Of a stretch of DNA of 49,670 nucleotides, positions 8,817 to 31,525 are shown one piece after another. Origin of the DNA: a virus. The notes beneath the pieces were generated by a model. It was given only the letters and a program-made list of their open reading frames with translations, was not told where the DNA came from and searched no databases. A program made the translations under genes and the position numbers. The stretch spans positions 1-49,670 of the IMG/VR virus record IMGVR_UViG_3300022542_000604; one strand, 5' to 3'. Every line of letters begins with the position of its first letter. Position 1 is the first letter of the stretch.

Positions 8817-9209
8817 ATGATAATAACCTGTAAAATCTGCCAAAAATCTTTTGAGTGGCACCGCAAGGGAGGGGGTCGCCAGCCAACAATTTGTCTTGAT
8901 CCCAAATGTTATAAGATACGGGATAAACTCCAGTATCAAAAATGGAAGGCAACTCATAATTATACACGTTATGAAAAACGAAAACCTACTATTAAATTAC
9001 AGAGTAATGTGTATAAAAAGAAGCGCTGTACGAATATATTAACAGATGATAATGGCAAAAAATACAGATGTAACAAAATCACAGCCAATGGAGGTCGAAA
9101 TAAATATTACTGTCAGGCTTGTTGGGATCGCTTATCAGAGGGAGTATCTCAAGAACATTCTGCCTTTATTTATGATCAATCATATTCCGAAAATATTGAA
9201 TGTTCATAA
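8817..9209 (+). CDS. Zinc-finger protein (~130 aa)
   Basis: Two Cys clusters are visible: CKICQKSFEW...CLDPKC near the N-terminus, resembling the short CxxC fingers of phage HNH-linked proteins, and CTN...RCNK...YYCQACW further on. The protein is basic throughout. Two in-frame starts exist (8799 and 8817); 8817 avoids overlap with the previous gene and is chosen with low certainty. Last rightward gene before the convergent terminator. Confidence 0.6.
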   Translation: MIITCKICQKSFEWHRKGGGRQPTICLDPKCYKIRDKLQYQKWKATHNYTRYEKRKPTIKLQSNVYKKKRCTNILTDDNGKKYRCNKITANGGRNKYYCQACWDRLSEGVSQEHSAFIYDQSYSENIECS

Positions 9210-9211
9210 AA

Positions 9212-9262
9212 AACCCAGTCAGTGCTTAAATTCTTATTTAAGGGAAACTGCCGGGTTCTTTA
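9212..9262. terminator. Bidirectional intrinsic terminator between convergent genes
   Basis: AACCC...GGGTT encloses a long imperfect stem in which CTTAAAT pairs with ATTTAAG, with ACTG/CAGT between. It is flanked by an A-run on the left and TTCTTT on the right, so it can serve the rightward early block and the leftward operon. Confidence 0.7.
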
Positions 9263-9388
9263 TAAATATAATTTGTTTAATGAGGCCAGGGATTATGATG
9301 TTTTAACAGCAAATTTAAAAATATCAGGCTTAGGCCAAAACATAAACACCACCTCCTTTCTTTCTATTGTCAAACGGTAAGATAAAAT

Positions 9389-9760
9389 TTAATACCCAAA
9401 ATGCAAAATTTTAATTTGATCCCATTTGGATAAATCTAGTGATTCAAGAAAAGCAATAAATGGCTTAATTCGCCTGTAACCATCATCATCAGCTTTCAGG
9501 CATTTGATAAGTGCCCCCATATCTACGTCTTTTAGTTTATCATCATACCTATCTTTTATAATTTGTGTGTTACCATCGTCGGCATAAATATAACAATTAG
9601 TAGGCAGAGAAATCTCTACAAGTTTCATTGTTTTGCTGCGATATCCCATTTTTGACATAGAAAAACAGGCTATAATAGAGGAAAAAACCATATTACCTGG
9701 TTCAGGTTTAATAAAAGATGATTTTTCGACTACATAAAATCTTGATTCATATCCTCCCAT
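9389..9760 (-). CDS. Conserved-looking phage hypothetical protein (123 aa)
   Basis: Leftward ATG at 9760 after GGAG. The N-terminus (MGGYESRFYVVEKS) and the following block (MVFSSIIACFSMSKMGY) resemble a small family of uncharacterised phage proteins; the rest is acidic with a run of Asp residues. It overlaps the upstream gene by 14 bp and is the last gene of the leftward operon. Function unknown. Confidence 0.65.
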   Translation of the reverse strand: MGGYESRFYVVEKSSFIKPEPGNMVFSSIIACFSMSKMGYRSKTMKLVEISLPTNCYIYADDGNTQIIKDRYDDKLKDVDMGALIKCLKADDDGYRRIKPFIAFLESLDLSKWDQIKILHFGY

Positions 9761-9941
9761 AATATTTCTCCTCCGTTTTTAATACTCTTCTAATTATTTC
9801 ATTCTCTGGAAACCTTGCACAAAAAGCGCAAAGTAATTGATTGAATTTCATAGGTTTATCAAGCTGAACCAGTACAGTTGCTTCTCTGTCTTTACAGATC
9901 ATGCACGGTCCGCCGAGTAAGTATGGTTTACAATTTTTCAT
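9747..9941 (-). CDS. Zinc-finger protein (64 aa)
   Basis: CMIC (residues 13-16) and CAFC (~38-41) form a four-Cys finger, followed by a basic helical tail. It overlaps the downstream leftward gene by 14 bp. Function unknown. Confidence 0.6.
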   Translation of the reverse strand: MKNCKPYLLGGPCMICKDREATVLVQLDKPMKFNQLLCAFCARFPENEIIRRVLKTEEKYYGRI

Positions 9942-9967
9942 TAGAGTCTACTTTTAGAATTTAGCAT

Positions 9968-10019
9968 TTAACTCCCTCAGGCCTACCTAGCTCCCAACTA
10001 GGCAAGATGAAGGGGTTAA
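9968..10019. repeat. Strong stem-loop between leftward genes
   Basis: TTAACTCCCTCA (9968-9979) pairs with TGAAGGGGTTAA (10008-10019), 11 of 12 positions counting one G-T pair. Inside, CCTAG (9986-9990) pairs with CTAGG (9998-10002). It lies between two leftward genes and has no U-tract, so it may be an RNA processing or attenuation element rather than a terminator. Confidence 0.55.
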
Positions 10020-10175
10020 TTACTTCCAAGGTTTAGGCTCAGGATAGTCAAAACCCCAGCCATCATGAGTTTTGAGGTATGCAATTTTTTTAGCATATCG
10101 GCTTAATTGACCTGGTATGCCCATACCTCTTTTACGTAATGACACCAATTTGATTCTTTTTTTACTCTTTGCCAT
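10020..10175 (-). CDS. Small basic protein (51 aa)
   Basis: The ATG at 10175 is preceded by GGAGGG. The product begins MAKSKKRIKLVSLRKRG, is strongly basic for 30 residues and ends with aromatic residues and Pro (GWGFDYPEPKPW). Nucleic acid binding is plausible from charge only. Confidence 0.6.
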   Translation of the reverse strand: MAKSKKRIKLVSLRKRGMGIPGQLSRYAKKIAYLKTHDGWGFDYPEPKPWK

Positions 10176-10191
10176 TTTCACTCCCTCCTCG

Positions 10192-10353
10192 TTAAATTTT
10201 TACACCTTCACTTTTGGCCCAGTTATACAATCCTATATCATTCAGAATCCATAACCGACGTTCATTGTTAGTCCGGGGTGATCCTGGAGCTATTTTCTGA
10301 ATACATTCATCAATTTCCTGTTTGTTTTGTTTTATAAATTTTGATAATGTCAT
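10192..10353 (-). CDS. Small helical protein (53 aa)
   Basis: The ATG at 10353 follows GGAGGG. Residues 1-20 (SKFIKQNKQEIDECIQK) are helical; the second half (PRTNNERRLWILNDIGLYNWA) reads like a short winged-helix or phage connector helix pair. No family is recognised. Part of the leftward operon. Confidence 0.6.
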   Translation of the reverse strand: MTLSKFIKQNKQEIDECIQKIAPGSPRTNNERRLWILNDIGLYNWAKSEGVKI

Positions 10354-10379
10354 ACTTAATCCCTCCATGTTTAAAGTGC

Positions 10380-10556
10380 TTAATTACCATTATAAAAAAA
10401 GTCATAGTGCCCAAAAAGATTCTTGTAAAATTTATATGTTACATGGCCTAATTTAACTAAATCCCATATCTTAGCACCATTGTTACACCAAAAAACCTTA
10501 TTATCGTGTTCAGTATACTTAATCGTTATATCATTGATTGTAATTGTTTGAAACAT
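10380..10556 (-). CDS. Hypothetical protein (58 aa)
   Basis: The ATG at 10556 is preferred over an upstream TTG because GGAGGG lies just before it. Mostly beta, aromatic-rich C-terminus (YKFYKNLFGHYDFFYNG). Function unknown. Confidence 0.55.
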   Translation of the reverse strand: MFQTITINDITIKYTEHDNKVFWCNNGAKIWDLVKLGHVTYKFYKNLFGHYDFFYNGN

Positions 10557-10614
10557 GGCTAAACCCTCCAATTAAATTGTTTGCTTCGGAACTCATATCC
10601 CCCCGTTAAAGTAT

Positions 10615-10896
10615 TTATATAGCATAATTATTATTATAAAATATCAACCAGCTTTCTAAAGTTTTCAAATCATCAAGAAGAGATTTAGTTATTCCCATTT
10701 TTTCTGGATGCAACAGCCAATGTAGTTTTATATGATCCGAATTATTTATAATTGCGAAATTATCCATATCATTATTAAACGGGTTTAAATCTACATGATG
10801 AACCACTTTATAGGTAGGCAAATTAGGATGTATTTTCTTAACTTTTCTTCTTGCCTTCATCCTCGAATAACCGATTTTACTATTTTTTGTTGTCAT
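10615..10896 (-). CDS. HNH endonuclease-like protein (93 aa)
   Basis: The HNH fold signature is visible at residues 32-60: VHHVDLNPFNNDMDNFAI with His33-His34 and Asn residues, then HIKLHW with His55 and His59. There are no zinc Cys pairs. The N-terminus is very basic (MKARRKVKKIH). Such proteins nick or cut DNA using one metal ion; this one is short, so it may be a free-standing homing enzyme or a regulator. Its start overlaps the upstream ribbon-helix-helix gene by 17 bp, which argues for one operon. Confidence 0.75.
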   Translation of the reverse strand: MTTKNSKIGYSRMKARRKVKKIHPNLPTYKVVHHVDLNPFNNDMDNFAIINNSDHIKLHWLLHPEKMGITKSLLDDLKTLESWLIFYNNNYAI

Positions 10897-11017
10897 TAAT
10901 TATCCTTTTTAATCCAATAACACAGGCATCTTGAATTGATTTAATTTTATCCTTTTCTTGTAATCTCCGAAGGGCTACCCATAGATCATGTTGTAATCTA
11001 ATAGTCACTATTTTCAT
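10880..11017 (-). CDS. Ribbon-helix-helix DNA-binding protein (45 aa)
   Basis: The ATG at 11017 follows a perfect AAGGAGGTGA. The product begins KIVTIRLQHDLWVALRRLQ, a beta strand with alternating residues followed by two helices (SIQDACVIGLKRII). This is the Arc/CopG ribbon-helix-helix pattern and length. Such proteins bind operators as dimers of the N-terminal strand and commonly autoregulate. It is the first gene after the strong leftward promoter, fitting an autorepressor of the operon. Regulation of the neighbouring non-coding region is speculation. Confidence 0.7.
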   Translation of the reverse strand: MKIVTIRLQHDLWVALRRLQEKDKIKSIQDACVIGLKRIINDNKK

Positions 11018-11049
11018 TTAGTTTCACCTCCTTTCGAGTTTTTACTGCT

Positions 11050-11078
11050 ATTATAGTACAACCGTTTTATGCTGTCAA
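11050..11078 (-). promoter_or_regulatory. Strong sigma-70 promoter of the leftward operon
   Basis: On the minus strand TTGACA (11078-11073) and TATAAT (11055-11050) are separated by exactly 17 bp: perfect consensus. The transcript would start near 11043 and enter the ribbon-helix-helix gene after ~25 nt. The -35 sits within GCTTGACAGC, a partial dyad. Confidence 0.9.
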
Positions 11079-11251
11079 GCTGTTTTTTTGTCATTCAGTT
11101 AATATGTTATGCAAAAGAGCGGCCAAACATAGTGGCCAGCTAACTATCTAATATTACACAATATCTTAATAAACAATATAAGATACTTATGTATCAAATA
11201 AAACACTATTGTACCGGGTTATTGAATGTTTAATTATTTCACATATTTACA

Positions 11252-11300
11252 GTGTCTCAAACCCAAGACACTTATGTCTTAGGTTTTATTTATGAGACAC
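11252..11300. repeat. Compound inverted repeat
   Basis: GTGTCTCA (11252-11259) pairs perfectly with TGAGACAC (11293-11300). Inside, AAGACA (11265-11270) pairs with TGTCTT (11275-11280) around CTTA, extended by AACC/GGTT. One side carries a 7-nt AT bulge. It could be a protein-binding site, replication-origin feature or RNA hairpin; no U-tract follows. Confidence 0.6.
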
Positions 11301-11350
11301 ATATTATCACCACTAAGTCAAATTAGATATATCGGATACTTATTACCCAT

Positions 11351-11379
11351 TTGACAGGACTGTCAGGGTATAGTATACA
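11351..11379 (+). promoter_or_regulatory. Promoter with operator-like dyad (candidate ncRNA 1)
   Basis: TTGACA (11351-11356), 17 bp, TATACA (11374-11379). The palindrome TGACAG-GA-CTGTCA (11352-11365) covers the -35, as an operator would. Confidence 0.75.
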
Positions 11380-11385
11380 TATATT

Positions 11386-11543
11386 GACTCACCAGCCAAG
11401 AGCTGGAGGAGATGGGATTTCCTTATTAAGTGGTAATCCTGAGATCAAAGCTGGCCGAGTTATTTCAGGTAGGCGCGGCGCCAACGTCTGCACCTAAACC
11501 CAGCAACCAGCAGTAAACGTGTGCCAGGTACTGGGTTTTTTTA
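11386..11543 (+). ncRNA. Candidate small non-coding RNA 1 (~158 nt)
   Basis: The unit lies between a consensus promoter and a U-tailed hairpin, without a usable reading frame. Predicted hairpins by eye: CCAGC/GCTGG (11392-11406), GGATT/AATCC (~11415-11439), and AGGT/ACCT enclosing a GC-rich loop (~11467-11495), then the terminator. The sequence does not match any RNA family I recognise. Regulatory, packaging or decoy roles are all open. Confidence 0.55.
11496..11543 (+). terminator. Intrinsic terminator of candidate ncRNA 1
   Basis: AAACCCAG (11496-11503) pairs perfectly with CTGGGTTT (11531-11538), followed by a further run of T. The 27-nt loop can pair further through ACC/GGT. Confidence 0.8.
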
Positions 11544-11551
11544 TTATTAAC

Positions 11552-11580
11552 TTGACAAGCTGTAAGTAAAAGAGTATAAA
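11552..11580 (+). promoter_or_regulatory. Consensus promoter in the non-coding region
   Basis: TTGACA (11552-11557), 17 bp, TATAAA (11575-11580). CTTGACAAG at the -35 is itself a palindrome with one central base. No clear terminator follows before the next promoter, so transcripts may read into unit 2. Confidence 0.75.
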
Positions 11581-11665
11581 GAGATCTCATAACTATTTTT
11601 CCTTCTTTTCATCTTGATAGAGACTTTGGATAAGTACGTGACATGCTTTTTCAGGGTTTTTTTTA

Positions 11666-11694
11666 TTGACAGGAACATTAAACTATGGTAAAAA
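11666..11694 (+). promoter_or_regulatory. Promoter for candidate ncRNA 2
   Basis: TTGACA (11666-11671), 17 bp, TAAAAA (11689-11694); the -10 is weaker than in the other two. GTATTAATAC, a 10-bp palindrome, lies at the expected start. Confidence 0.55.
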
Positions 11695-11700
11695 AGTATT

Positions 11701-11884
11701 AATACGCGTGAAGGCCATAGTTGGCCGTTAAATCCTGAGGTGGCCAACAAAGCGCCACCAAATTAGCGGACCTGTTCTTCTTATATTAATAGATTGAGCA
11801 TTAGGATAGGTTCAGATCCACTTAAACCCGGTGCCCAAGGAGTAGGAATAAAAGCGTTACACTCACCTGGCCCGGGTTTTTCTT
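11701..11884 (+). ncRNA. Candidate small non-coding RNA 2 (~184 nt)
   Basis: The unit contains two perfect hairpins, GGCCA/TGGCC (11713-11726) and GGTGGC/GCCACC (11739-11759). They compete with a third perfect pairing, GTTGGCC (11720-11726) with GGCCAAC (11742-11748). Mutually exclusive stems are typical of regulatory RNAs. It ends in a strong terminator. No matching RNA family is recognised. Confidence 0.5.
11824..11884 (+). terminator. Intrinsic terminator of candidate ncRNA 2
   Basis: AAACCCGG (11824-11831) pairs perfectly with CCGGGTTT (11872-11879), followed by TTC; the long loop pairs again through CCA...TGG. Confidence 0.75.
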
Positions 11885-11994
11885 AAACAATACCGAGGAT
11901 AAGCCAATGTTCAAATAGACTGGCAAAGTGCTTAAACTTATTCAAGCGAAGTCGCCGGATTAATATGAGAGTGGACTTTTCCGGTAAACCTTTT

Positions 11995-12043
11995 AAAACC
12001 CTTAGAATAGTCTGCATAGGATCATTTCCAGGGGTTTCTATAA
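11995..12043 (+). terminator. Terminator-like hairpin 3
   Basis: AAACCC (11996-12001) pairs with GGGTTT (12032-12037); GGA/TCC inside. Only a short pyrimidine stretch follows. No clear promoter is seen for the preceding ~110 nt. Confidence 0.45.
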
Positions 12044-12116
12044 CGACCATTAAGGCACCGATAAAGCCTAAAATGATACAGTGGGGACGATTTAATTAGA
12101 TCTCCATACCAAATTA

Positions 12117-12152
12117 GCCCCTGGTTGCTTACATAGGATCAGGGGTTTTCTT
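12117..12152 (+). terminator. Terminator-like hairpin 4
   Basis: CCCCTG (12118-12123) pairs with CAGGGG (12140-12145) around a 16-nt loop and is followed by TTTTCTT, a good intrinsic terminator just upstream of the HNH promoter. Confidence 0.65.
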
Positions 12153-12168
12153 ATGAAGATATTAGGTA

Positions 12169-12197
12169 TTGACAGAAAAACCATTATACTATATATA
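12169..12197 (+). promoter_or_regulatory. Promoter of the HNH gene
   Basis: TTGACA (12169-12174), 17 bp, TATATA (12192-12197). The predicted start (~12204) is within a few bases of the ATG at 12206, implying a leaderless or nearly leaderless mRNA. Confidence 0.75.
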
Positions 12198-12205
12198 AGA
12201 AGGTT

Positions 12206-12574
12206 ATGAGTGATTATAGAAAATATCTGAAATCCTACCAATGGAAAAATATAAAAGAACAAGTAATTACTAAAGTACATAACAAATGCGAATTATGTGG
12301 ATCAAGAAATAATTTAGTGGTTCATCACATAAAATATCCGAAGGTCTTAGGTACAGAGACATTAAATGATCTTCAGTGTTTATGTGATGATTGCCATAAC
12401 GTAAAATGTCATAATGGTAGCTCTTCAAATAGTAAGATTAGATTAACCAAACAGGAAAAGCGAAAGCGCAAAATAAGCAGGCAAAAAGCTAAATTCGCAG
12501 GACTTGTAAGAATATACAGTAAAGAGGAAATAAAGGACTATATTACCGGCATGGCTCGGCAACCATGTACATAA
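12206..12574 (+). CDS. HNH endonuclease (122 aa)
   Basis: Residues 28-64 form a complete zinc-HNH module: CELC (28-31), His40-His41, Asn54 and CDDCH (60-64). The N-terminus (YLKSYQWKNIKEQV) matches the helix that precedes the module in phage HNH proteins; the C-terminus is very basic, then polar. HNH proteins located next to terminase genes are known to assist terminase-mediated DNA cleavage in some phages (e.g. HK97 gp74), or act as homing enzymes. The position ~1.1 kb upstream of the small terminase fits either. The gene has its own promoter immediately upstream. Confidence 0.8.
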   Translation: MSDYRKYLKSYQWKNIKEQVITKVHNKCELCGSRNNLVVHHIKYPKVLGTETLNDLQCLCDDCHNVKCHNGSSSNSKIRLTKQEKRKRKISRQKAKFAGLVRIYSKEEIKDYITGMARQPCT

Positions 12575-12616
12575 CTGCCCTATTAAGGTAATATTTAACC
12601 GTTAACTTTTAAATAA

Positions 12617-12781
12617 GGTGTTAATCGTAGCAACTCCGCGTAGGACGAGCTATTCCCGGATGCCGCGGGCCTAATTACCTACCAGGATAATTACTAAGGT
12701 AAAGTAGGATATCGTAAAAAGGTGATACATAAGGTTGTTGTAATATTTATACCTTATCGTTACTTAGAAGTTGTTAACACC
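12617..12781 (+). ncRNA. Candidate structured RNA/DNA element upstream of small terminase
   Basis: The 325-bp gap between HNH and the next small gene holds no convincing frame but dense pairing. GGTGTTAA (12617-12624) pairs perfectly with TTAACACC (12774-12781) as an outer stem. Inside lie CCGCG/CGCGG, CCTA..TACC with GGTA..TAGG, and ATAAGGT/ACCTTAT. TTATCGTTAC (12754-12763) can instead pair with GTAACGATAA (12869-12878) downstream, and GGTATA/TATACC forms a hairpin at 12831-12846. It may be a riboregulator, a packaging or origin element, or an intron relic; none is proven. Confidence 0.4.
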
Positions 12782-12899
12782 GAAAAACCCTGGATATATC
12801 ACCTGGTAGAACCTCTGTAAATAGTTAAATGGTATATAAGTATACCAACCAACTATATCCTATAAAAAGTAACGATAATCAGTATTTAAAGGATTTATT

Positions 12900-13087
12900 A
12901 TGATAGATACATACCATTATATGCAGTTACAAGGTAAAGGACGTTGGCCTTCTGTAGATAAGATAGAGAATGAAGATATAGTGACAAAACCACACAAATT
13001 TATAACTTTTGGAAATGGCAAAAATTAGGGGAATATGAGGGATTAACTATTTATCGTATTAATGCATTGTTACCTCAAAAGGAGTAG
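12900..13087 (+). pseudogene. Small protein gene with apparent one-base loss
   Basis: The ATG at 12900 follows AAAGGA and gives 42 codons to 13028 (MIDTYHYMQLQGKGRWPSVD...). In the -1 frame the codons after 12992 read without stop to 13087 and look protein-like (FWKWQKLGEYEGLTIYRINA). Adding one A to the AAAA run near 12985 would join the two into a ~62-aa protein. Alternatively the 42-aa product is real as it stands. Confidence 0.4.
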
Positions 13088-13137
13088 TTATGAAAAAATA
13101 TCCGGTCTTACCGTAAAACCCTTCTATCCCCTAATTT
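13022..13137. repeat. Spaced 11-bp inverted repeat
   Basis: AAATTAGGGGA (13022-13032) and TCCCCTAATTT (13127-13137) are perfectly complementary across 94 bp, flanking the end of the small gene and preceding the promoter at 13144. Confidence 0.5.
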
Positions 13138-13143
13138 ATTCCC

Positions 13144-13172
13144 TTGACAGAATGTACCTAATATGTTATCAG
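13144..13172 (+). promoter_or_regulatory. Possible promoter for the terminase block
   Basis: TTGACA (13144-13149) with a 17-bp spacer to TATCAG (13167-13172). The -10 is poor beyond TAT, so confidence is moderate. Confidence 0.45.
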
Positions 13173-13211
13173 TAATAGTAATCATTACTAATAAGGAATA
13201 TCTTAGTCTCA

Positions 13212-13358
13212 ATGCCAAAACCCTACAAAAAGGAAACTAAATCACACTATATGTCCCGTTGCATCCATCACGTTCGGGAAGAAAACCCCGGCAAAAAAAG
13301 ACTATTCTATATTCTCCACTGCCAAGGACTCTGGGAAAAGTATCATGGCACTAAGTAA
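13212..13358 (+). CDS. Small conserved phage protein (48 aa)
   Basis: The ATG at 13212 starts MPKPYKKETKSHYMSRCIH, a pattern I associate with short phage proteins or protein tails reading 'MPKP..E....FMSRC', which usually end in a CYSIW-like motif; here a Cys-Trp pair is kept (HCQGLWEKY). It overlaps the small terminase start by 14 bp. Function unknown; the coupling suggests a packaging-linked role. Confidence 0.6.
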   Translation: MPKPYKKETKSHYMSRCIHHVREENPGKKRLFYILHCQGLWEKYHGTK

Positions 13359-13956
13359 AAAAGGGGTGAAATGGGATGTGATAGAAGTAGAATATCGCGC
13401 CGGTCAACTAGCTATCCGGGAAATCGCACGGCAACACAATATATCAAATCCTGCTATCATCAAACGAGCCAAAACAAGAGGGTGGACACGGGATCTAACA
13501 GAACAAATAAAACAACGGGTAAAAGCTAAAATGGTGAACGATGGGTTAGCAGTTAGCAACGCGCTAACCGATGAGGATATCATCGAAAAAGCAGCTGATC
13601 GAAATATAAAAGTCATTGAATTACACCGGAAAGATATCTCCGACCTCCAAGAAATAGAAACCACCTTAAAAGCAGAATTAGCTGCAAACCATAAACTTGC
13701 TATTGTGTATAAAGGTGAAGTTACAGGCCAATTACCTATGACTGTATTAGACAAATCCCGTACAGTAGACAATCTTTCAAAGATAATGCACAGGAGGATC
13801 ACTCTTGATCGGCAAGCTCGTAATATTGACGATAAGACCCCCACCGGCAGTGAATCAGATCCTATCCATGTTAAACATAGTATGGACACCTCCGGGTTAT
13901 CGAAGGCCGTTGAGGTGCCAAAACCCTGTGGAGTTCCGCAATTAGAGGAAGGATAG
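13345..13956 (+). CDS. terS: Terminase small subunit
   Basis: A 203-aa protein. The N-terminus (residues ~8-50) is a helix-turn-helix of the type found in small terminases: WDVIEVEYRAGQLAIREIAR, then HNISNPAIIKRAK and GWTRDL. A helical oligomerisation region follows (~65-155), and the C-terminus is Pro/Glu-rich, as expected for contact with the large subunit. TerS recognises the packaging site on phage DNA and loads TerL. It lies 2.2 kb upstream of terL with an HNH gene between, a frequent phage arrangement. Confidence 0.8.
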   Translation: MALSKKGVKWDVIEVEYRAGQLAIREIARQHNISNPAIIKRAKTRGWTRDLTEQIKQRVKAKMVNDGLAVSNALTDEDIIEKAADRNIKVIELHRKDISDLQEIETTLKAELAANHKLAIVYKGEVTGQLPMTVLDKSRTVDNLSKIMHRRITLDRQARNIDDKTPTGSESDPIHVKHSMDTSGLSKAVEVPKPCGVPQLEEG

Positions 13957-14068: not shown

Positions 14069-14097
14069 TTGACATAATAAATAGTATATGATAATAT
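14069..14097 (+). promoter_or_regulatory. Promoter of the second HNH gene
   Basis: TTGACA (14069-14074), 17 bp, TAATAT (14092-14097), followed ~20 bp later by GGAGGTG and the ATG at 14127. Confidence 0.65.
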
Positions 14098-14126: not shown

Positions 14127-14639
14127 ATGAATAGATCGTGTTATTATGTACCTTTAACTGAAGATGTATTTGAAAGGGTTAGGAAGGCGTTTGAGGATGA
14201 TTTAGTACCGATCATAGAGATAGCTACCTGGTTTTATGTTAGTAGGCAGGCTATCTATAAGTTTTTAAAGAAGCATGGTATTAATACAACTAAAAAGCAG
14301 TTAAAGGTACAGTGTGAGTGGTGTGAGAGGGTATTTGATAGGACTAAGGGAAGGATAAGGAAGCAGAAATACCATTTTTGTTCTACTAAGTGTTATTACA
14401 GTTATATCGGTGAAATAGGGATTAATTACAAACCTAACCGTCATGGTCAAAGGATAGGGAGACAGAAGGTATCTAAATATTTTGAGTTGTTACCTGGTAT
14501 GGTAGTTCATCATGAAGACGGAAATAACCTAAATAATGAACTACACAATTTAAAAGTCTTTGCTAATAATGGAGATCATGTAAAGTATCATAGATGGGTT
14601 AATAAGACTGATCCTATCTGGGATGGATCGAAGCTGTAA
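14127..14639 (+). CDS. HNH endonuclease with HTH and zinc finger (170 aa)
   Basis: Residues ~26-50 form a helix-turn-helix (IIEIATWFYVSRQAIYKFL). Cys63/Cys66 and Cys85/Cys89 form a zinc finger. The HNH core lies at 126-155: VHHEDGNNLNNELHNL with His128-His129 and Asn residues, then HVKYH with His151 and His155. This order matches phage intergenic homing endonucleases. GC-poor codon use resembles its neighbours. It has its own promoter and sits between the two terminase genes, a typical invasion site for such elements. Confidence 0.8.
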   Translation: MNRSCYYVPLTEDVFERVRKAFEDDLVPIIEIATWFYVSRQAIYKFLKKHGINTTKKQLKVQCEWCERVFDRTKGRIRKQKYHFCSTKCYYSYIGEIGINYKPNRHGQRIGRQKVSKYFELLPGMVVHHEDGNNLNNELHNLKVFANNGDHVKYHRWVNKTDPIWDGSKL

Positions 14640-14653
14640 ACCAGTAAACTTGT

Positions 14654-14669
14654 TGTTTCACGTGGAACA
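14654..14669. promoter_or_regulatory. parS: Perfect bacterial parS site (ParB-binding)
   Basis: TGTTTCACGTGGAACA is the exact reverse complement of TGTTCCACGTGAAACA, a canonical chromosomal parS sequence bound by Spo0J/ParB. It lies in a ~230-bp gap between the second HNH gene and a small gene. A frame open across it (14623-14862) has no ribosome binding site and reads through a downstream repeat, so the site is most likely intergenic. ParB-CTP clamps load at parS and spread over ~10 kb of DNA. A phage copy could recruit host ParB for segregation, replication or packaging control; none of this is shown by sequence alone. Confidence 0.85.
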
Positions 14670-14833
14670 TAGAATATGCACTAGGAGGCGGGCCAAGTGG
14701 GCTAAAGAGTATTTGTTGAGTCTCGGCATGTACTCAGATATAGCCCCCGACCTATTAAACTCAAAAAAGCCTTTTAGAGAAAGAGGGGTGGGGGTACCCA
14801 CAATCGCAATGGGTCCCATAATGTATATATACT

Positions 14834-14847
14834 ACCCTAGTTTTATA
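14834..14847 (+). repeat. Repeat element copy 1 (ACCCTAGTTTTATA)
   Basis: First of three copies sharing ACCCTAGTTTTA, 40 bp upstream of the start codon at 14874. The spacing is similar in all three copies (40-45 bp), suggesting a promoter or leader signal. Confidence 0.6.
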
Positions 14848-14873
14848 GAATTATTTTTTTGAGATTTTTAGCT

Positions 14874-15046: not shown

Positions 15047-15060
15047 ACCCTAGTTTTATA
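15047..15060 (+). repeat. Repeat element copy 2 (ACCCTAGTTTTATA)
   Basis: Identical in 14 bases to copy 1; 45 bp upstream of the proposed ATT start of the next gene. Confidence 0.6.
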
Positions 15061-15295: not shown

Positions 15296-15309
15296 ACCCT
15301 AGTTTTAGA
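15296..15309 (+). repeat. Repeat element copy 3 (ACCCTAGTTTTAGA)
   Basis: Shares ACCCTAGTTTTA and the final A with copies 1 and 2; 45 bp upstream of the ATG at 15341. Confidence 0.55.
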
Positions 15310-15927: not shown

Positions 15928-16205
15928 AAGCCAATATACCAGAGAAGATTATACAATGCAAAGATATTCCGTCTGCGCCTATATTAATATTTATTTCTAA
16001 ACATGGTGGTATTGGATGTAATTGGTTTAGTATTAATAAGTTTGATAATCCGCGAAGTGTCCGTCACGCGATGTTGGAAGGCGTTCCGAGGAAGGTAGTT
16101 CTTGCTAAGATGAAGCATTTAATATCGAAGGGTTATATAAGTGGATGCGCGTGTGGTTGCCGTGGTGATTTCGAACTTACAGAGAGAGGTCTTCAAGTAA
16201 TATAA
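15918..16205 (+). CDS. Winged-helix-like protein (95 aa)
   Basis: The second half reads as a small winged helix: ARN-type helix RSVRHAMLEGVPRKVVLAKM, KHLISKGYI, and a wing (CGCRGDFELTERGLQVI) with three Cys. The stop overlaps the terL start by one base. It may be a terminase accessory DNA-binding protein, by position. Confidence 0.5.
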   Translation: MSLEANIPEKIIQCKDIPSAPILIFISKHGGIGCNWFSINKFDNPRSVRHAMLEGVPRKVVLAKMKHLISKGYISGCACGCRGDFELTERGLQVI

Positions 16206-17890
16206 TGCCCTTAGAAGCTAAGACTATAGAGAATGGAGATTATGCTCGCCAGGTATGCGAATTTTTACCTACAGCTTCATATGAGAAGGCTTTAGAGATA
16301 TATCAGCTTGTTTTAAATGATCCACATTTAGATGATTATGTGATAGCTCAAATGGGTAGGTATGACCGTTATTTTTTAATGACCATGATTTTAAGGGTTG
16401 GGAATACTGTCCCTTATGTTTTTCATCCTTGGGTATATGAAAGGACTAGAGAAGTTGAGGCCGAACCTGATCATTGCCTTGATTTTTGGGCGCGTGAGCA
16501 TTTTAAGTCAACCATAATTACGTTTGCCGGTTCTTTTCAGGAGATAATAAAGGACCCTGAAATAACGATAGGGATATTCAGTCATAATACGGTACATAGC
16601 CGTGATAAATTTGTTATGCGGATTAAATCAGAAATGGAGATGAATAAAAGTCTTCCCCGGTATTATCCTGATATTTTCTGGTCTAACCCTAAAAAAGAGT
16701 CCCCTTCTTGGTCAAGGGATAGTGGTCTTATTATTAAAAGACAAGGGAATCCTGCTGAGGCTTCATGGTCCGGTTGGGGGTTAGTAGATGGGCAACCTGT
16801 TGGATCTCATTTTGGATTAGTCATATATGACGATGTTGTAACTGAGAAATCTGTCACGCCTGAAATGATTATAAAAACTACAAAAATGTGGGAACTTTCC
16901 ACATTTATGACTAAACGTAGGGAAGATGGTACACGACCGAGGGTTTGGTATATCGGAACACGGTATAGTTTTGCGGATACTTATCATGTTATGTTAGAAC
17001 GAAAGATAGGAAAACCGCGTATTTATCCAGCTACGGATGATGGCCTGCCAGATGGAAACCCTGTTTATTTGACTAACGCTGAATGGGAGAATAAAAAATC
17101 GGATACAAGCCCCCAAACTATTGCCTGCCAGATGCTTCAAAATCCTTTAGCCGGTGAGGAACAAGAATTTAAGCCTGAATGGATACGAAGATATGAGGTG
17201 AGGCCAGAGACGCTTAATGTGGGTATTCTGGTCGATCCTGCGAGTTCCAAGAAAAAGGGTACATCTAATACGGCGATGGCCGTTATAGGAGTAGGGCATG
17301 GCCTGAATAAGTACCTATTGGATGGGTTTTGCCATAAGATGAATTTATCCGAGCGCTGGGTGAATTTGAAGAACCTGAGGACTAAATGGCTAAATCAGCC
17401 TGGGATACAGACTGTTAGTGTAGGATATGAAAAATATGGTATGCAGGCGGATATTGAGTATTTTCAGGAAATGATGGAGATAGAAGAGGAATCGTTCCCT
17501 ATTCAGGAAGTGAGTTGGACACGAGATGATACTAATGCTAAGGATGATAGGATACGACGATTGATACCAGATCATCAAAATTGGCGATTCTTTTATCCTT
17601 GGGAAAGGGATTTAAATAAACCTAACGAGGTTGATACTGCCCGTATGCGTAAAGCTAATGAGCAGAAGAAAGGTTATTTGTGTGCTAAGTCTATTAAGCG
17701 AAGGAACCATGATGGCCATATTTATAATCTGGTAGATTGGTTTATTGCCAATGAATATATGTTTTTTCCCGCGACTACAAGTAAGGACTTCCTGGATGCC
17801 ATGAGTCGAATATATGATCTGGATATAAGTGCACCTATTATATATGAGGAAGAAGATTTATTGCCGGATGTGGCGTTGTTTGGGACATAA
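16205..17890 (+). CDS. terL: Terminase large subunit
   Basis: A 561-aa protein with N-terminal ATPase and C-terminal RNase H-like nuclease. A Walker A-like REHFKST segment lies at ~96-102 with a coupling FSHN strand after it, and Walker B LVIYDDVVTEK at ~203-213, where the Asp pair replaces the usual Asp-Glu. A conserved WYIGTRYSF region follows at ~240. The nuclease domain opens with GILVDPASSKKKGTSN at ~339, giving the first catalytic Asp, and further acidic residues follow. TerL pumps DNA into the procapsid through the portal and cuts concatemers. Length and motif order fit P22/podovirus-type large terminases. Confidence 0.9.
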   Translation: MPLEAKTIENGDYARQVCEFLPTASYEKALEIYQLVLNDPHLDDYVIAQMGRYDRYFLMTMILRVGNTVPYVFHPWVYERTREVEAEPDHCLDFWAREHFKSTIITFAGSFQEIIKDPEITIGIFSHNTVHSRDKFVMRIKSEMEMNKSLPRYYPDIFWSNPKKESPSWSRDSGLIIKRQGNPAEASWSGWGLVDGQPVGSHFGLVIYDDVVTEKSVTPEMIIKTTKMWELSTFMTKRREDGTRPRVWYIGTRYSFADTYHVMLERKIGKPRIYPATDDGLPDGNPVYLTNAEWENKKSDTSPQTIACQMLQNPLAGEEQEFKPEWIRRYEVRPETLNVGILVDPASSKKKGTSNTAMAVIGVGHGLNKYLLDGFCHKMNLSERWVNLKNLRTKWLNQPGIQTVSVGYEKYGMQADIEYFQEMMEIEEESFPIQEVSWTRDDTNAKDDRIRRLIPDHQNWRFFYPWERDLNKPNEVDTARMRKANEQKKGYLCAKSIKRRNHDGHIYNLVDWFIANEYMFFPATTSKDFLDAMSRIYDLDISAPIIYEEEDLLPDVALFGT

Positions 17891-20812: not shown

Positions 20813-22843
20813 ATGCCTGAGGAAGACAAAGACAATATATGGTTGAAAAGGGCGAAGTTCGCATACGATCAGTCTACGACATTTGTTGATAATAATTATC
20901 GTAAACAGTGGGAAGACGGCGAAAGGCATTTTCAATCTAAACATGCTAGTGGATCAAAGTATTATAAGGCTGCATATAAATATAGATCACGTATCTTCCG
21001 ATCTAAGACTCGGTCCGTTATCAGGAGTAATGAGGCCGCTGCCGCCGCCGCTTTCTTTGCCAATAAAGACGTTATTAACATGGAGGCCCAGAACTATGAT
21101 GATGAATACCAAAGGGCTTCTGCCGACGTATTACAAGAACTCCTGAACTACCGCCTTACAAATACTATTCCTTGGTTTATGACGTGTATAGGTGGCTATC
21201 AGGACACTATGAAGGTGGGAGTGGTTTGTTCTTATCAGACCTGGGAATATAAGGAGAAGATCGAAACTGTATATGAGCCGATGATTGATTCTGCTACAGG
21301 GATACCTATTATTGATGCTGAAACAGGCAAACCAGCCATGACAGAAACTAAAATAAGTACCCCTATTGTAGATAAGCCGTCTATTACCCTTATGCCTGTT
21401 GAAAACATACGGTTTCATCCTGCAGCCGATTGGATTGATCCTATTAATTCAAGTCCATACCTAATCAGGCTTATCCCAATGTATATAATTGATATTAAAG
21501 CCCGGATGGAGGATGGAAATATAAAAACAGGGCAAGCCAAATGGAAGCCATTGACTAATGAAGAAATAAAAGCTGCCAGTAAAATACAGTACGATAGCAC
21601 AAAACAGACAAGAGAAGGAAATCGGCAAGATGCCACTGAAGAGGAAAATACCCCCGATTTGGTCGAGTACGATGTTGCATGGCTACACGAGAATTTTATG
21701 TGCGAAGATGAAGAGGATTATGTTTATTACACCCTTGGTACTGAACATATACTTACTGACCCTGTACCTATTGAGGAAGTGTATTTCACTGGTGAAAGAC
21801 CTGTTGTACTTGGATGTTGCATTATTGAGTCTCATAAAGTCTATCCGGTTGGATATTCCGGGCTAGGTAGAAACACCCAAGAAGAAATAAATGAAAACGC
21901 GAACCAACGGTTAGATAATGTTAAGTTGGTTATGAATAAAAGATGGTTTGTGAGAAGGGGTGCTCAGGTAGATGTAAAGACTATCACAAGGAACGTTCCT
22001 GGCTCTGTAACAATGGTCAATAGTAAAAGCGGAAAATTAACCGACGATGTATACGGCCATGAATTTCATGATGTTACCTCTTCAAGCTACCAAGAACAGG
22101 ATAGATTAAGTTTAGATTTTGACGAGCTTGTCGGTATGTTTTCGCCTTCTTCAATACAGGCTAATCGTAAAATGAATGAGACTGTAGGCGGTATGTCTAT
22201 GTTACGCGGGGCTTCTGGAGCCCTTGGTGAGTATTCAATTAGAACATTTGCCGAAACATGGGTGGAACCTACCATGAGGCAACTTGTAAAACTTGAACAA
22301 AAGTATGAAACCGATGAAGTCATTCTTGCACTTGCTGCAAGTAAAGCACGATTATTCCAAAGATACGGCATTGATAGGGTAACAGACGATCTTTTAAATC
22401 AAAATGTTACCGCTGATGTGAATGTCGGGATGGGTTCGACTGATCCACTTCAAAAATTGCAAAATTTTATATTTGCTATTAGGGCCGTTCTTGATATTTT
22501 AAGACAAAACCCGGATAGCTCCCCGTTAAATGTTGTAGAAGTAATAAAAGAGGTTTTCAGTTTTGTTGGGTATAAGAGTGGGGCCAGATTTTTGATACAG
22601 AAAATGGAAGAGCAAGATCCTGAAAAAATGCAGATGGGTCAGATAATACAGCAACTTCAAGCGATGTTACAACAAATGCAGCAAGAACTTAAAAGCAAGC
22701 AGGCTGACCAAGCGGTTAAACTCAAGACAACAGAAATGAAAGAGTATGGTCAGGATAGGCGTAAGGCCGCTGATATAGCTGCTGATATCAAAATGAAACA
22801 TATGGATTTATTGAATCCAGTTGTGGGGGAAACAAGGCAATGA
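20813..22843 (+). CDS. Portal protein (676 aa)
   Basis: A long protein directly upstream of the scaffold and capsid genes. The N-terminus has the YR..WE...H pattern of podovirus-type portals, the middle is mixed alpha/beta with repeated Asp/Asn-rich loops, and the C-terminal ~100 residues form a Gln/Lys-rich helix (IQQLQAMLQQMQQELKSK), as in the barrel or crown of portals. The portal is the dodecameric ring through which TerL pumps DNA and to which the gp4-like adaptor binds. Family assignment rests on length, position and motif style rather than one signature residue. Confidence 0.75.
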   Translation: MPEEDKDNIWLKRAKFAYDQSTTFVDNNYRKQWEDGERHFQSKHASGSKYYKAAYKYRSRIFRSKTRSVIRSNEAAAAAAFFANKDVINMEAQNYDDEYQRASADVLQELLNYRLTNTIPWFMTCIGGYQDTMKVGVVCSYQTWEYKEKIETVYEPMIDSATGIPIIDAETGKPAMTETKISTPIVDKPSITLMPVENIRFHPAADWIDPINSSPYLIRLIPMYIIDIKARMEDGNIKTGQAKWKPLTNEEIKAASKIQYDSTKQTREGNRQDATEEENTPDLVEYDVAWLHENFMCEDEEDYVYYTLGTEHILTDPVPIEEVYFTGERPVVLGCCIIESHKVYPVGYSGLGRNTQEEINENANQRLDNVKLVMNKRWFVRRGAQVDVKTITRNVPGSVTMVNSKSGKLTDDVYGHEFHDVTSSSYQEQDRLSLDFDELVGMFSPSSIQANRKMNETVGGMSMLRGASGALGEYSIRTFAETWVEPTMRQLVKLEQKYETDEVILALAASKARLFQRYGIDRVTDDLLNQNVTADVNVGMGSTDPLQKLQNFIFAIRAVLDILRQNPDSSPLNVVEVIKEVFSFVGYKSGARFLIQKMEEQDPEKMQMGQIIQQLQAMLQQMQQELKSKQADQAVKLKTTEMKEYGQDRRKAADIAADIKMKHMDLLNPVVGETRQ

Positions 22844-25220: not shown

Positions 25221-26865
25221 ATGAGTGGACAAGTATGGGTTACAAACAGTCTTGGAGGTTATATGTCTGCCAAGAACTTGTCCAAAAAGCTGCGTTTGGC
25301 AGTACAGCCTTTGATAAAATTCCGTGGTGTAAACTGCTGAAATGACGGCGGAATTAAAACTCTCTCTGATTGACTTGGATACCCAGACATGGGCGACAGG
25401 GGGCAAGGTATGAACTTAAAAGAATTTAAAAAATGTCCTATATGTAAAAAAGTTATCCGTGAGTGCGAAACAGATTTTTTAACACAGTATCATGATATAT
25501 GTGTTGAATGTGGATGGCGGGGATGTTTTATAAGTCAATACCAGCCTGAACGACTGAGCGAGAGAGCATCTATAAAAGATGATGCGACAGTCTGAACCCT
25601 GATATAACGTAAGATAATATAAGTCAGGGAAGCTACCTTAACATGGCGTTCACCTTTATATAATGCTATCAAATAGTGACTATTGACGCATTAGGAAGGT
25701 CATAAAAGTAACAGATTGCAGTTATGCGATGTCAAAGACGCAACGCAGCAGGGCAAGAAAAAAGGTGATACATATCACTGGGATGTGTTCTCGGACGTTT
25801 CAACTCAAGGTACAACTCTAACTGAAACGAAAACCATGCCGGAAACCCCATTTGTGATTACACAGGGAACTTTAACTGTGGATGAATTTGGTGAGCTAAT
25901 CGCCACCTTATTGTCTCACATAAAGGCAATAATGGAAAAACGGGTGAATTGCTGGAATATCCTGAGAGCTGTTTATACTACAACGTGATTAGAAATGATG
26001 AGCGTGAATGTTATAAAAAATAAGCAGATTGGACAATCAGCAGCCAAGCCATGAAGGGCATAGGTTTCATGGAAGGTTCAACGACTATGAAGGTGAGTCC
26101 CAACAATAATCCTTCGCACGAGTGCCCGTCTCTAACGAGAAGATATAGTCTGAGCTGCATGGAGACATGTAGAGCTATGGTTTAAACGGCCATAGGATAA
26201 CAAAACTGAATAGTGTTCCGTTTACTCAGAAGCTCGATAATCTGAGTGAACTTCCGGTAACAACGATAATTAATAAGGTCATTAAAAACGACGCTAAAAA
26301 GGCGTTTGATATTGCAGCGGAAGCTCAGTTTTCTTATACCCCACTGCATATCTGTGAAGATGGCAGTTCAACTACTGCCGTAAATCTTATGACCGCTTCA
26401 ACCAATACTGATACTGCAAGTGTGGCTCTTGGTAAAGGTCATGTCAAGGCTATCAGGGATATTATGGTAGAACGTAATATTCCGCCATATCAGTTAGATG
26501 ATTATATTGCTATATCATGGCCGACTACATTCAGAACCTTTAAGAACGACCTTGAAAGCATTAAACAGTATACCCCTGCAGGATTTCACATGATACTGAA
26601 TGGTGAGGCTGGTCGTTATGAAAATACAAGGTTCATTGAACAGACAAACATTGCAAAAGACGGAACTACATCCACGGATTGGTGTTACTTTATGGGTGAT
26701 GATACCGTATGTGAGGCAATTGTTGTGCCGGAAGAGATAAGGGGAAAAATTCCGGGTGATTATGGAAGGTCTAAGGGGATAGCGTGGTACTACCTCGGAG
26801 GCTTTGGACTGGTACATACCGCACAACTACAGGCCCGCATCATTCGATGGGGCTCTAAAGCATAG
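25221..26865 (+). CDS. Major capsid protein, three exons split by two group I introns
   Basis: Exons 25221-25325, 25719-25892 and 26209-26865 join in one frame to a 311-aa protein. Exon 1 reads MSGQVWVTNSLGGYMSAKNL and ends LIKFR; exon 2 continues QLCDVKDATQQGKKKGDTYH and ends TVDEFG; exon 3 resumes NSVPFTQKLDNLSELPV and ends IRWGSKA. The joined order (QVW..NSLGGYM, KGD..HW.V, TQGTLTVDEFGNSVP.T.KL, KNDAKKAFD, ERNIPPY..DDYIAI, GRYENTRF.EQTN, E.IRGKIP) matches a phage capsid family I recognise. Both 5' exons end in U and both introns end in G, as group I splicing requires. Without splicing the frame stops after 39 codons (TGA 25338-25340). GGAG at ~25208 is the ribosome binding site. Confidence 0.85.
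25326..25718 (+). ncRNA. Group I intron 1 in capsid gene (393 nt)
   Basis: The last eight exon bases AATTCCGT (25318-25325) pair with GCGGAATT (25348-25355), giving an 8-bp P1 with the required U-G pair at the splice site. CAGAC (25384-25388) pairs with GTCTG (25590-25594), fitting P7; a 61-codon ORF occupies the P8-side loop between them. CCCTG/CAGGG follows as a P9-like stem. The intron ends in G at 25718 and the exon resumes at CAG. Remaining core helices were not fully resolved by eye. Confidence 0.75.
25410..25595 (+). CDS. Zinc-ribbon ORF inside intron 1 (61 aa)
   Basis: The ATG at 25410 follows AAGG (an in-frame ATG at 25389 lacks a good site). CPIC (residues 9-12) and CVECGWRG (~30-37) form a four-Cys ribbon like that of Lar-type or Com-like proteins. 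There is no LAGLIDADG, GIY-YIG or HNH core, so it is not an obvious homing endonuclease. Its stop codon lies inside the P7 strand. It may be cargo, a maturase-like helper or a homing enzyme relic. Confidence 0.5.
   Translation: MNLKEFKKCPICKKVIRECETDFLTQYHDICVECGWRGCFISQYQPERLSERASIKDDATV
25893..26208 (+). ncRNA. Group I intron 2 in capsid gene (316 nt)
   Basis: This intron has the group IA core strings known from T4 td-like introns: GGGTGAATTGCTGGAA, AATCAGCAGCCAAGCC, GGTTCAACGACTATG and AGATATAGTCTG. GACTAT (26083-26088) pairs with ATAGTC (26145-26150) as P7, and further hairpins follow (GCTATGG/CCATAGG). P1 pairs exon TGGT with GCCA near 25902 with U-G at the junction, plus a weaker outer part. 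No ORF lies within. It ends in G at 26208. Confidence 0.9.
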
Positions 26866-27390: not shown

Positions 27391-29061
27391 ATGAAGAGAG
27401 TTTTTATACATAGGGAAGGGGCATTTGGCGATCATGTCCATATGTCTAATGTGATACGAGCCTTTTATGAGGATGGTTGGGAAGTATCCATGCTCTATAA
27501 TTTTAAAGGTGCTCAAATACATTCAAGTAATCCTATGATTGCACATCATTATTTTTATGAAGCCGGTGCAAAAGAACTTACTCGTGAGCATGTACAAGAA
27601 CGTGCAGACTTAATTAAAAAAGCACAAGACGAGTTCGATAGGTATGTGTGTTTTCAGAATAGTATCGAACATGCCCTTATAGCTGGTGAAGATCAACCTG
27701 AATATTTCTGGCCATTGCACCTTCGCAGGGCGAAAAACGGTCATATCTGTTACTACGATTATTCTATGCAATGGGCTGGTCTAACGGATAAGAAATTTAT
27801 GGGTAAGACTGGAGATGTGTTTTTTACAGAAGAAGAGAATGCCCATGTTTTGAAGTACCTCGACCAATTTAAGGATAATTTCATTGTTTTATGGGGAATA
27901 CGTGGATCAATGTACCAGAAGGCCATATTCCCTATTGCGGAAGAAATATGCAATGAATTTATAAAAATGCACCCAGAGACGATTATAATTACCACTGGGG
28001 ATAAGTTCTGCCAGGAATGGGAATGGGAACACCCGAAGGTTATCCATAAGTCGGGCAGATGGCCTTTCCGCCAAGCATTACATCTTTCTAAATATGTTGA
28101 TCTTGTTGTAACCCCTGAAACAGGCTTAGGGATAGGTGCTGGCTCCTTTGATACGCCAAAAGTTATGCTTTTAACTGCCGCCAGCCTAACAAATGTTGTC
28201 GGAAATGACAGAAATGATTATTCTGTGCAATCTCCCGTCTGGTGCAGCCCATGTACCCGGGCTATTTACAACACAGATAATTGCAAATTAGGGCCTGAAA
28301 AACAATACCTTAAAGGGAAGGTTATAGATCAATGTGCGTATAATTACGGGGAGACAACCTTAACCCGTTTGCCAATATGTGTGGATTTTCCAAAAGAATT
28401 AGTCTTAGATCAGATGGAGAAGGCGTACAACGCAAAGCATATGAGGGCATGGGACCGCCCGGATGGATGGACAGAGGCTAATTGGAGAAAGGCTGCCAAA
28501 GATATAAGCAAAATCCCGCCTACTAGAATGAAAAGGAAACAGCCTAAGTCAGCAGTTAGTGATAATGACATTAAAGGTTTAATAACAGCGGCATGTTCTA
28601 CTCCCCCCGGTGATATTGTTGAAATTGGGGTGTATAGGGGTGGATCTGCCTGGCATTTGGATAAAATGTGTCATGACCAGGGCCGTACATTACACTTATT
28701 CGATACGTTTGAGGGTATGCCTTTTCGCTCTATGTATGACCAAATACCTGTTGGTTACTTTAGCGATATCATTTATGAAGAGATAGTCGCCCTTTTCCCT
28801 GATGCAAAGTTCTATAAAGGTGTATTTCCTGACACCCTACCCAATGATTTACATAATATAGCTTTTGTCCATATTGATTGTGACCAATATTACAGTGTTA
28901 AATCCGTTATTAAAACAATGCCGGATAGAATGGTTAAAGGCGGTGTTATGTATTTTGACGATTACGAAAATTTAAGAGGGGCTAAAATAGCTATTGATGA
29001 GTGCCTAAAAGATTTCACTGTTTTTGGTGGTGGGCACAAAGTTATATGGCAGAAACCTTAA
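27391..29061 (+). CDS. GT9-like glycosyltransferase fused to TylF-like methyltransferase (556 aa)
   Basis: Residues ~1-360 resemble glycosyltransferase family 9 (heptosyltransferase-type): an N-terminal Gly loop (REGAFGDHVHMSNVIRAF), a WPFRQALHLSKYVDLVVTPE region and ETGLGIGAGSF, with a Cys-rich segment (WCSPC...NC...QC) near 290-330. Residues ~385-556 match TylF/macrocin O-methyltransferases: VEIGVYRGGSAWHLDK at ~409, LHLFDTFEGMP, and VHIDCDQYYSVKSV at ~493. The two activities in one chain suggest sugar transfer and methylation of the same glycan. Such genes are rare in the structural block; they could modify host surface polysaccharide or the virion. Confidence 0.7.
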   Translation: MKRVFIHREGAFGDHVHMSNVIRAFYEDGWEVSMLYNFKGAQIHSSNPMIAHHYFYEAGAKELTREHVQERADLIKKAQDEFDRYVCFQNSIEHALIAGEDQPEYFWPLHLRRAKNGHICYYDYSMQWAGLTDKKFMGKTGDVFFTEEENAHVLKYLDQFKDNFIVLWGIRGSMYQKAIFPIAEEICNEFIKMHPETIIITTGDKFCQEWEWEHPKVIHKSGRWPFRQALHLSKYVDLVVTPETGLGIGAGSFDTPKVMLLTAASLTNVVGNDRNDYSVQSPVWCSPCTRAIYNTDNCKLGPEKQYLKGKVIDQCAYNYGETTLTRLPICVDFPKELVLDQMEKAYNAKHMRAWDRPDGWTEANWRKAAKDISKIPPTRMKRKQPKSAVSDNDIKGLITAACSTPPGDIVEIGVYRGGSAWHLDKMCHDQGRTLHLFDTFEGMPFRSMYDQIPVGYFSDIIYEEIVALFPDAKFYKGVFPDTLPNDLHNIAFVHIDCDQYYSVKSVIKTMPDRMVKGGVMYFDDYENLRGAKIAIDECLKDFTVFGGGHKVIWQKP

Positions 29062-29062
29062 A

Positions 29063-29896
29063 ATGATCAATCCAATAATAAACGGAAATGGCTTCAATCG
29101 AGTCGTAAAAGGAAAGTACGGGTATTTTCTTTATAACAAGAATGATGTTTTTGTAGGTAAAGCCATTGAGATGTATGGAGAATATTGCGAAGGCGAAGTT
29201 AATTTGTTTCGGGAGTTATGCGAACCCGGATTTCATGCTATGGACTTAGGCGCAAATATGGGAGCTTTGACATTACCTCTATTACGGATAGTTGGAAAGC
29301 ATGGCTTTGTGTATGCCTTTGAACCACAACAAGCCATTTTTCAAGTTTTGTGTGCGAATATGGCTCTAAACAGCATGGAGAATGTTCAATGTTTTCCCTT
29401 TGCTGTTTCCGATGTGGATAGCTATGGACAACTCCCATATTATAATTACAATATGACTGCTAATTACGGAGCCCCACAGATTGATGAGACGATGGACAAT
29501 GCCTATCAAGTTAAGCTGGTGTCTCTTGACGATCAGTTTTACAATATAAAACGTCTTGATTTCATAAAGATGGATATTGAAGGTATGGAGGCAAAGGCCC
29601 TACACGGAGCTACTACGCTGATTGATAAATTCCGGCCTATTATGTACGTGGAAAACGATAAAAAGGGGAAAACAAAGGAGCTTATCGAGTTGCTTCAGTC
29701 TTTTGGATATTTGTTGTATTGGCATATGCCAAAACTTTATAATCCGCAAAATTATGCAGGTGAATCTGAGAATATCTATAGGAATACAGTAACATTTAAC
29801 ATGATATGTATTCCACAAGAAGCGGGGATAAACATAGATGGCCCGCCTGTGATAACAGACAGTGATTATCATCCGCTGTTTAGCAATATAAGTTGA
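29063..29896 (+). CDS. FkbM-family methyltransferase (277 aa)
   Basis: The start at 29063 is chosen over 29024, which overlaps the previous gene. AdoMet-binding motif MDLGANMGALTLPLL at ~60-74, acidic loop FEPQQ at ~97, and the FkbM signature FIKMDIEGMEAKALHGA at ~170-186. FkbM proteins methylate sugar hydroxyls. It follows the GT9-TylF gene by 1 bp and the cassette likely acts on one glycan. Confidence 0.75.
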   Translation: MINPIINGNGFNRVVKGKYGYFLYNKNDVFVGKAIEMYGEYCEGEVNLFRELCEPGFHAMDLGANMGALTLPLLRIVGKHGFVYAFEPQQAIFQVLCANMALNSMENVQCFPFAVSDVDSYGQLPYYNYNMTANYGAPQIDETMDNAYQVKLVSLDDQFYNIKRLDFIKMDIEGMEAKALHGATTLIDKFRPIMYVENDKKGKTKELIELLQSFGYLLYWHMPKLYNPQNYAGESENIYRNTVTFNMICIPQEAGINIDGPPVITDSDYHPLFSNIS

Positions 29897-29907
29897 GGTC
29901 TTACCTA

Positions 29908-30642: not shown

Positions 30643-30646
30643 TAAA

Positions 30647-31045
30647 ATGTTTAAGAAAATAATCTTAGGTTTATGTGTGTTTTGTTTTATTGCTATTCCA
30701 GCTTGGGCAGCAAACAATATTGAAGTATCAGGGCATACAATAGAGATATCATCAATTGATTCTGCATGGGTATCTTCTACTGATACTAAACTTTCAGCAA
30801 ATCAACGGCTTTATGGATTATATATTCATTCTATTTATTTTAAGCCTGCTGCAACTGATGATGAATGTACTGTTTATATAGGTAGTTCGACAGCTGGGAT
30901 TTTGTCATTTTCGTTTTTATGTGCCGATAAATATGATGAGCGTATTAAGTATTTTCCGCCAAATGTTAGGAACCATATTTATATAGCCGATACAGACCCT
31001 ACAGCTGGTAGTATAATTGTAATAGACCTTTGGAAATATGAATAA
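30647..31045 (+). CDS. Secreted-type protein with signal peptide (132 aa)
   Basis: AGGAG lies before the ATG. The N-terminus is a classic Sec signal: MFKKII, then a hydrophobic core (LGLCVFCFIAIPA) and AWA-A cleavage motif near residue 22. The mature ~110 residues are beta-rich. Small phage proteins with this layout occur in tail modules; export to periplasm or surface, or incorporation into virions, is possible. Confidence 0.6.
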   Translation: MFKKIILGLCVFCFIAIPAWAANNIEVSGHTIEISSIDSAWVSSTDTKLSANQRLYGLYIHSIYFKPAATDDECTVYIGSSTAGILSFSFLCADKYDERIKYFPPNVRNHIYIADTDPTAGSIIVIDLWKYE

Positions 31046-31115
31046 TGAAAATTATGCTTGGATAGAGATGGCAAAATAATTATAAGCAGAAAACTATTAA
31101 TGGAGGTTTATAAAA

Positions 31116-31520: not shown

Positions 31521-31525
31521 AAGAA

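Follow-up and report, generated by a model that had tools for sequence, protein, structure and literature searches.

A stretch of viral DNA from IMG/VR raises the question of why a phage would carry, among its late genes, a sequence that bacteria use to segregate their chromosomes. The window analysed here, meaning the whole stretch of 49.7 kb (49,670 nucleotides), is a linear and incomplete fragment. At 14654-14669 on the + strand it holds the 16-bp palindrome TGTTTCACGTGGAACA, an exact match to parS with zero mismatches to TGTTNCACGTGNAACA, and, the reading of this palindrome on the − strand aside, no second parS with up to three mismatches is present in the window, bearing out an earlier note on this DNA that had reported a perfect parS site here. 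That note had also judged a chance match very unlikely, in agreement with a first-order Markov expectation, counting both strands of the window, of 1.3e-5 for the exact 16-mer and of 8.6e-5 for all TGTTNCACGTGNAACA sequences. Its statement that the site is a canonical parS in reverse complement is likewise accurate: the coding strand of Bacillus subtilis parB contains parS as 5'-TGTTCCACGTGAAACA (PMC4333373), of which the phage 16-mer is the exact reverse complement, and B. subtilis ParB binds the identical parS sequence in vitro (PMC4333373). Compared with bacterial chromosomal parS (TGTTNCACGTGAAACA, PMC7022226), the window site thus equals the parB-internal B. subtilis site on the opposite strand, whereas it is viral, lies away from oriC and is unaccompanied by parAB. 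Judged by the consensus TGTTNCACGTGNAACA, 14654-14669 is a chromosomal-type parS at which ParB loading is predicted, and we consider it very probable that the ParB of the host would bind there.

The site lies in the terminase region, as the earlier note had placed it. Upstream on the + strand are the genes for the terminase small subunit TerS (13345-13956; phrog_1206, E 6e-33) and an HNH endonuclease (14127-14639; phrog_7545, E 2.9e-10), whose stop codon is 14 nt from the start of parS; a spacer follows the site (14670-14873, +), and the gene for the large subunit TerL (16205-17890, +; phrog_38, E 8e-29) begins 1,535 nt downstream of it. The HNH gene, for which a promoter scan found a promoter-like site at 14069-14097 (TTGACA-17-TAATAT with TG before the −10) as well as a GGAGG, appears to have been inserted between the two terminase genes. 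A 79-aa ORF (14623-14862) runs through parS, but it matches no family and overlaps the end of the HNH gene, and is therefore probably not a gene; parS stands outside any well-supported gene. In the same region, ACCCTAGTTTTA occurs three times within 500 nt (14834-14845, 15047-15058 and 15296-15307), each time before a small ORF, and is a possible phage promoter or regulatory repeat. Elsewhere the window encodes an SU10-type portal (20813-22843), a P22-like head closure protein Hc3 (35000-36823) with relatives mostly in proteobacterial phages and genomes, an SU10 adaptor, a DnaD-like helicase loader and RusA. No integrase was found in the 49.7-kb window, and the phage is probably virulent. A group I intron (25888-26172; Rfam RF00028, 75 bits) lies just upstream of a gene at 26389.

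A palindrome 14 nt behind a stop codon might instead act as an RNA hairpin terminating the HNH gene, or as the operator of some regulator other than ParB. RNA from the + strand can indeed form a 6-bp hairpin (−5.4 kcal/mol over 33 nt), and copies of the 16-mer in another viral contig, L045, precede many genes in an operator-like arrangement. However, we rejected an intrinsic terminator because no T-run follows the palindrome and the fold is no better than that of shuffled sequences, and a terminator scan found none on the + strand here. The enrichment of the sequence in viruses (below) depends on every one of the 16 bases, the outermost pair among them, as fits parS, leaving a hairpin or foreign operator a very improbable explanation.

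If the site is a parS, the protein that reads it would have to come from somewhere. No ParA was found in the 49.7-kb window, as the earlier note had stated, and its companion statement that no segregation ParB is encoded holds in substance: the window contains no canonical ParB, and ParB_N nowhere rises above its cut-off. The nearest candidate is a 249-aa protein (29893-30642, +) with a weak C-terminal ParB/Srx-fold domain (approximately residues 159-247, nucleotides 30433-30588; PF02195 at 12.4 bits, below the family cut-off). Its best phrog match is phrog_498, a methyltransferase family, and it has no Pfam hit and no convincing PDB relative. In canonical ParB, the helix-turn-helix (HTH) that reads parS follows the ParB/Srx-type domain; here the protein ends with that domain, and we rejected it as a phage-encoded ParB and parS binder because there is neither room nor a match for an HTH. 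Phage ParB-CTPase folds often occur as fusions with further domains, methyltransferases among them (PMC12704722), and a cluster of methyltransferase-type genes (27391-33067; TylF, FkbM and Methyltransf_11 families) surrounds this protein. In this incomplete fragment of 49.7 kb, parS thus comes without any canonical ParB or ParA of the phage's own, as expected of a phi29-type phage that would exploit host ParB. A centromere-type site is also found on phages and prophages that have a ParABS of their own, such as extrachromosomal mycobacterial prophages (PMC7157519), but they encode ParA and ParB together with cognate sites, whereas the parA and parB genes of such a phage-plasmid are both absent from the window.

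Across viruses, the 16-mer is far more frequent than control sequences. In a collection of 50,697 phage records, 147 contain TGTTTCACGTGGAACA, at 213 places in total, against about 1 under a uniform expectation; these records are not independent and include many close kin, for example Listeria and Arthrobacter phages. The reversed 16-mer occurs in none of the 50,697 records, and a control that keeps CACGTG and the near-palindrome in 5. Symmetric parS is found in 286 records, but once the outer base pair alone is swapped the number drops to 4, and these come from two Sulfolobus viruses; the streptococcal parS variant, in which the outer pair is changed, is carried by no Streptococcus phage in the collection. 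The P. aeruginosa-type consensus TGTTCCACGTGGAACA, which agrees with that given in PMC7022226, appears in 58 phage records with Pseudomonas as the largest named group (17); ten Klebsiella records also carry it, several of them jumbo phages in which it sits inside a structural gene, and they show that some matches are incidental. Escherichia, with at least 338 records in the collection, is outside the ten commonest names in all three parS lists, and Enterobacteriaceae lack chromosomal par genes (PMC7022226). This pattern of hosts is suggestive and falls short of a formal test. Among the phage records, Microviridae such as MG945168, MT135422 and PQ006149, which are ssDNA phages of about 5 kb, bear one or several parS, and bajarodino virus 6 has 12 strand-counted places corresponding to about six sites.

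In IMG/VR, the 16-mer occurs at no fewer than 119 loci (118 records listed), compared with 1 and 12 for the controls, so that up to about 10% of the exact matches could be due to chance. The loci listed form 86 sequence clusters, and the DNA flanking parS differs in nearly all of them. Of the 133 sites at these loci, 42 fall in no ORF of at least 80 aa, against 12.4 expected, and ParB_N is above cut-off in only 4 of the 118 parS-bearing records listed, many of which are fragments. Judged against the controls, parS in phages is no accident. One contig, L045 (IMGVR_UViG_3300037518_000322; 117 kb, viral, 65% GC in the analysed stretch), holds 11 exact 16-mers and one symmetric parS within 5 kb (8906-13878), mostly intergenic and beside start codons, and shows no ParB_N match.

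The earlier note had proposed asking whether site and position are conserved in related phages, and the answer is mixed. A near-identical record (L123) matches the window at 100% over 10 kb but ends short of the parS site. A parS within two mismatches is missing from eight portal relatives (L146-L153, 37-74% identity) and likewise from the remoter records examined, several of which are fragments; TerL as a single-protein query against IMG/VR returned no relative. Conversely, a distant relative retrieved through its own exact parS (L089; 46% identity in the portal, 47% in gene 31526, with further similarity in the capsid region and Hc3) carries the site between its portal and major head genes. 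Because the eight portal relatives lack a site and L089 has one elsewhere, the position of parS appears not to be conserved across the wider group, and what recurs is possibly the possession of a site.

The eight relatives without parS, the adjoining mobile-type HNH gene and the finding that control 16-mers match 1-12 IMG/VR loci would all be expected if the window site were a chance 16-mer or a functionless fossil of host DNA brought in with the HNH cassette. Against this stand the window expectation given above and a roughly ten-fold or greater excess over the harsher control. No relative of the HNH protein was found in the other 119 parS loci listed, which led us to reject joint movement of parS and the HNH gene. 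We consider chance or fossil origin improbable.

The location beside the terminase genes suggests another role, in which ParB and SMC loaded there would order concatemers or mark the start of packaging. Several observations fit. Twenty-six parS loci form a family related to pelagiphages HTVC023P and HTVC027P, with the site often near TerL or portal. Among 26 parS-selected loci with phrog_38-type TerL, 10 have the site at most 1 kb upstream of TerL, against 3.4 expected, an excess that is an observation rather than proof because most of the loci are kin. The loci of the 26-locus cluster were chosen for the exact 16-mer, and conservation within that cluster was therefore left out of the evidence. 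Pelagibacter phage HTVC027P, an isolate reached through TerL similarity and not through parS, has a one-mismatch parS (CGTTTCACGTGAAACA; L166:15933-15948) in its TerS-TerL gap; in the stretches examined of HTVC023P and 023Pt_psg01, no CGTTTCACGTGAAACA-like site lies between the terminases, and HTVC023P has one dissimilar one-mismatch site, TGTTACACATGTAACA. In Pseudomonas phage phiPsa374, parS lies within the direct terminal repeat (L170:389-404), and the same holds for several phiPsa374 relatives and for Vibrio phage phi 3. However, the TerL-proximal excess comes mostly from one phage family, the phi29 sites are scattered across the right half of that genome, and the L089 site lies between portal and capsid genes, and a role in packaging or DNA organization is accordingly unlikely.

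The closest precedent is phi29 (EU771092), which carries four copies of the identical 16-mer spread over the right half of its genome and, like the window, has no phage ParB annotated. Spo0J reportedly takes part in the entrapment of phi29 in spores. A passage of PMC9429907 citing Meijer et al. (2005, EMBO J) describes phi29 as trapped in spores of sporulating B. subtilis. Whereas phi29 infects a known sporulating host and has four sites, the window has a single one and belongs to another phage group. A second precedent is SGI1, whose parS mimics are proven to stabilize SGI1 and expel its helper (PMC10954446). Here too a mobile element mimics the parS of another replicon and uses the ParABS of that replicon, but SGI1 is an integrative element, its ParB/parS are of the IncC plasmid type, and its case rests on experiment.

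We favour, with moderate confidence, the reading that 14654-14669 is a functional host-type parS retained by the phage, by which host ParABS carries the infecting genome. On binding to parS, ParB forms a closed CTP clamp that slides (PMC12704722); from the 16-bp match, we infer that such clamps of host ParB would be loaded onto the phage genome at 14654-14669 and would then slide along it. Host ParA (and SMC) would then handle the ParB-coated DNA as an extra chromosome origin region, inviting ParA-driven movement and SMC loading onto it. The payoff, as described for phi29 during sporulation of B. subtilis, would be that an infecting genome whose lytic cycle is delayed is retained and passed on to a daughter cell or spore. 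Taken on its own, carriage of the genome by host ParABS is a tentative step, a little short of an even prospect. The earlier proposal that host ParB is recruited gains indirect support from the enrichment of the 16-mer, the scarcity of ParB in its carriers, the non-coding preference and the phi29 precedent; the outcomes it had listed, namely partitioning as an episome, control of an origin and interference with host segregation, are not separated by these observations.

Interference is the rival to which the evidence for ParB recruitment applies equally: parS on many phage copies would titrate ParB and SMC off the chromosome origin, stalling segregation and division. Copy number in lytic growth would multiply the effect, and the SGI1 mimics show that one set of sites can both stabilize its bearer and act against another replicon. 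However, there is only one site per genome here, no recognized phage effector adjoins parS, and since many bacteria can do without parB (PMC7022226), it is unclear what a lytic phage would gain. We consider interference unlikely, if somewhat less so than a packaging role, and our favoured order is genome carriage, then host interference, then packaging.

Beyond this locus, it is an even question whether host-type parS is a common and largely unrecognized strategy across unrelated phages, frequently placed near terminase genes, by which host ParB, ParA and SMC would be made to handle the viral genome. The window would be an SU10/P22-like instance, and phi29-like phages, Otagovirus, Listeria phages, actinophages, gokushoviruses and pelagiphage-like podoviruses would be others. 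The kind of phage parS is already known from phi29, and its breadth appears under-described in searchable papers: the literature searched, which covered few subscription papers or preprints, contained no survey of parS across phages. If this reading is true, viral DNA can mislead parS-based origin finding, and a 16-base deletion would directly test whether virulent phage genomes are carried through slow growth or dormancy. Host chromosome segregation would then be a general target of phages of many kinds.
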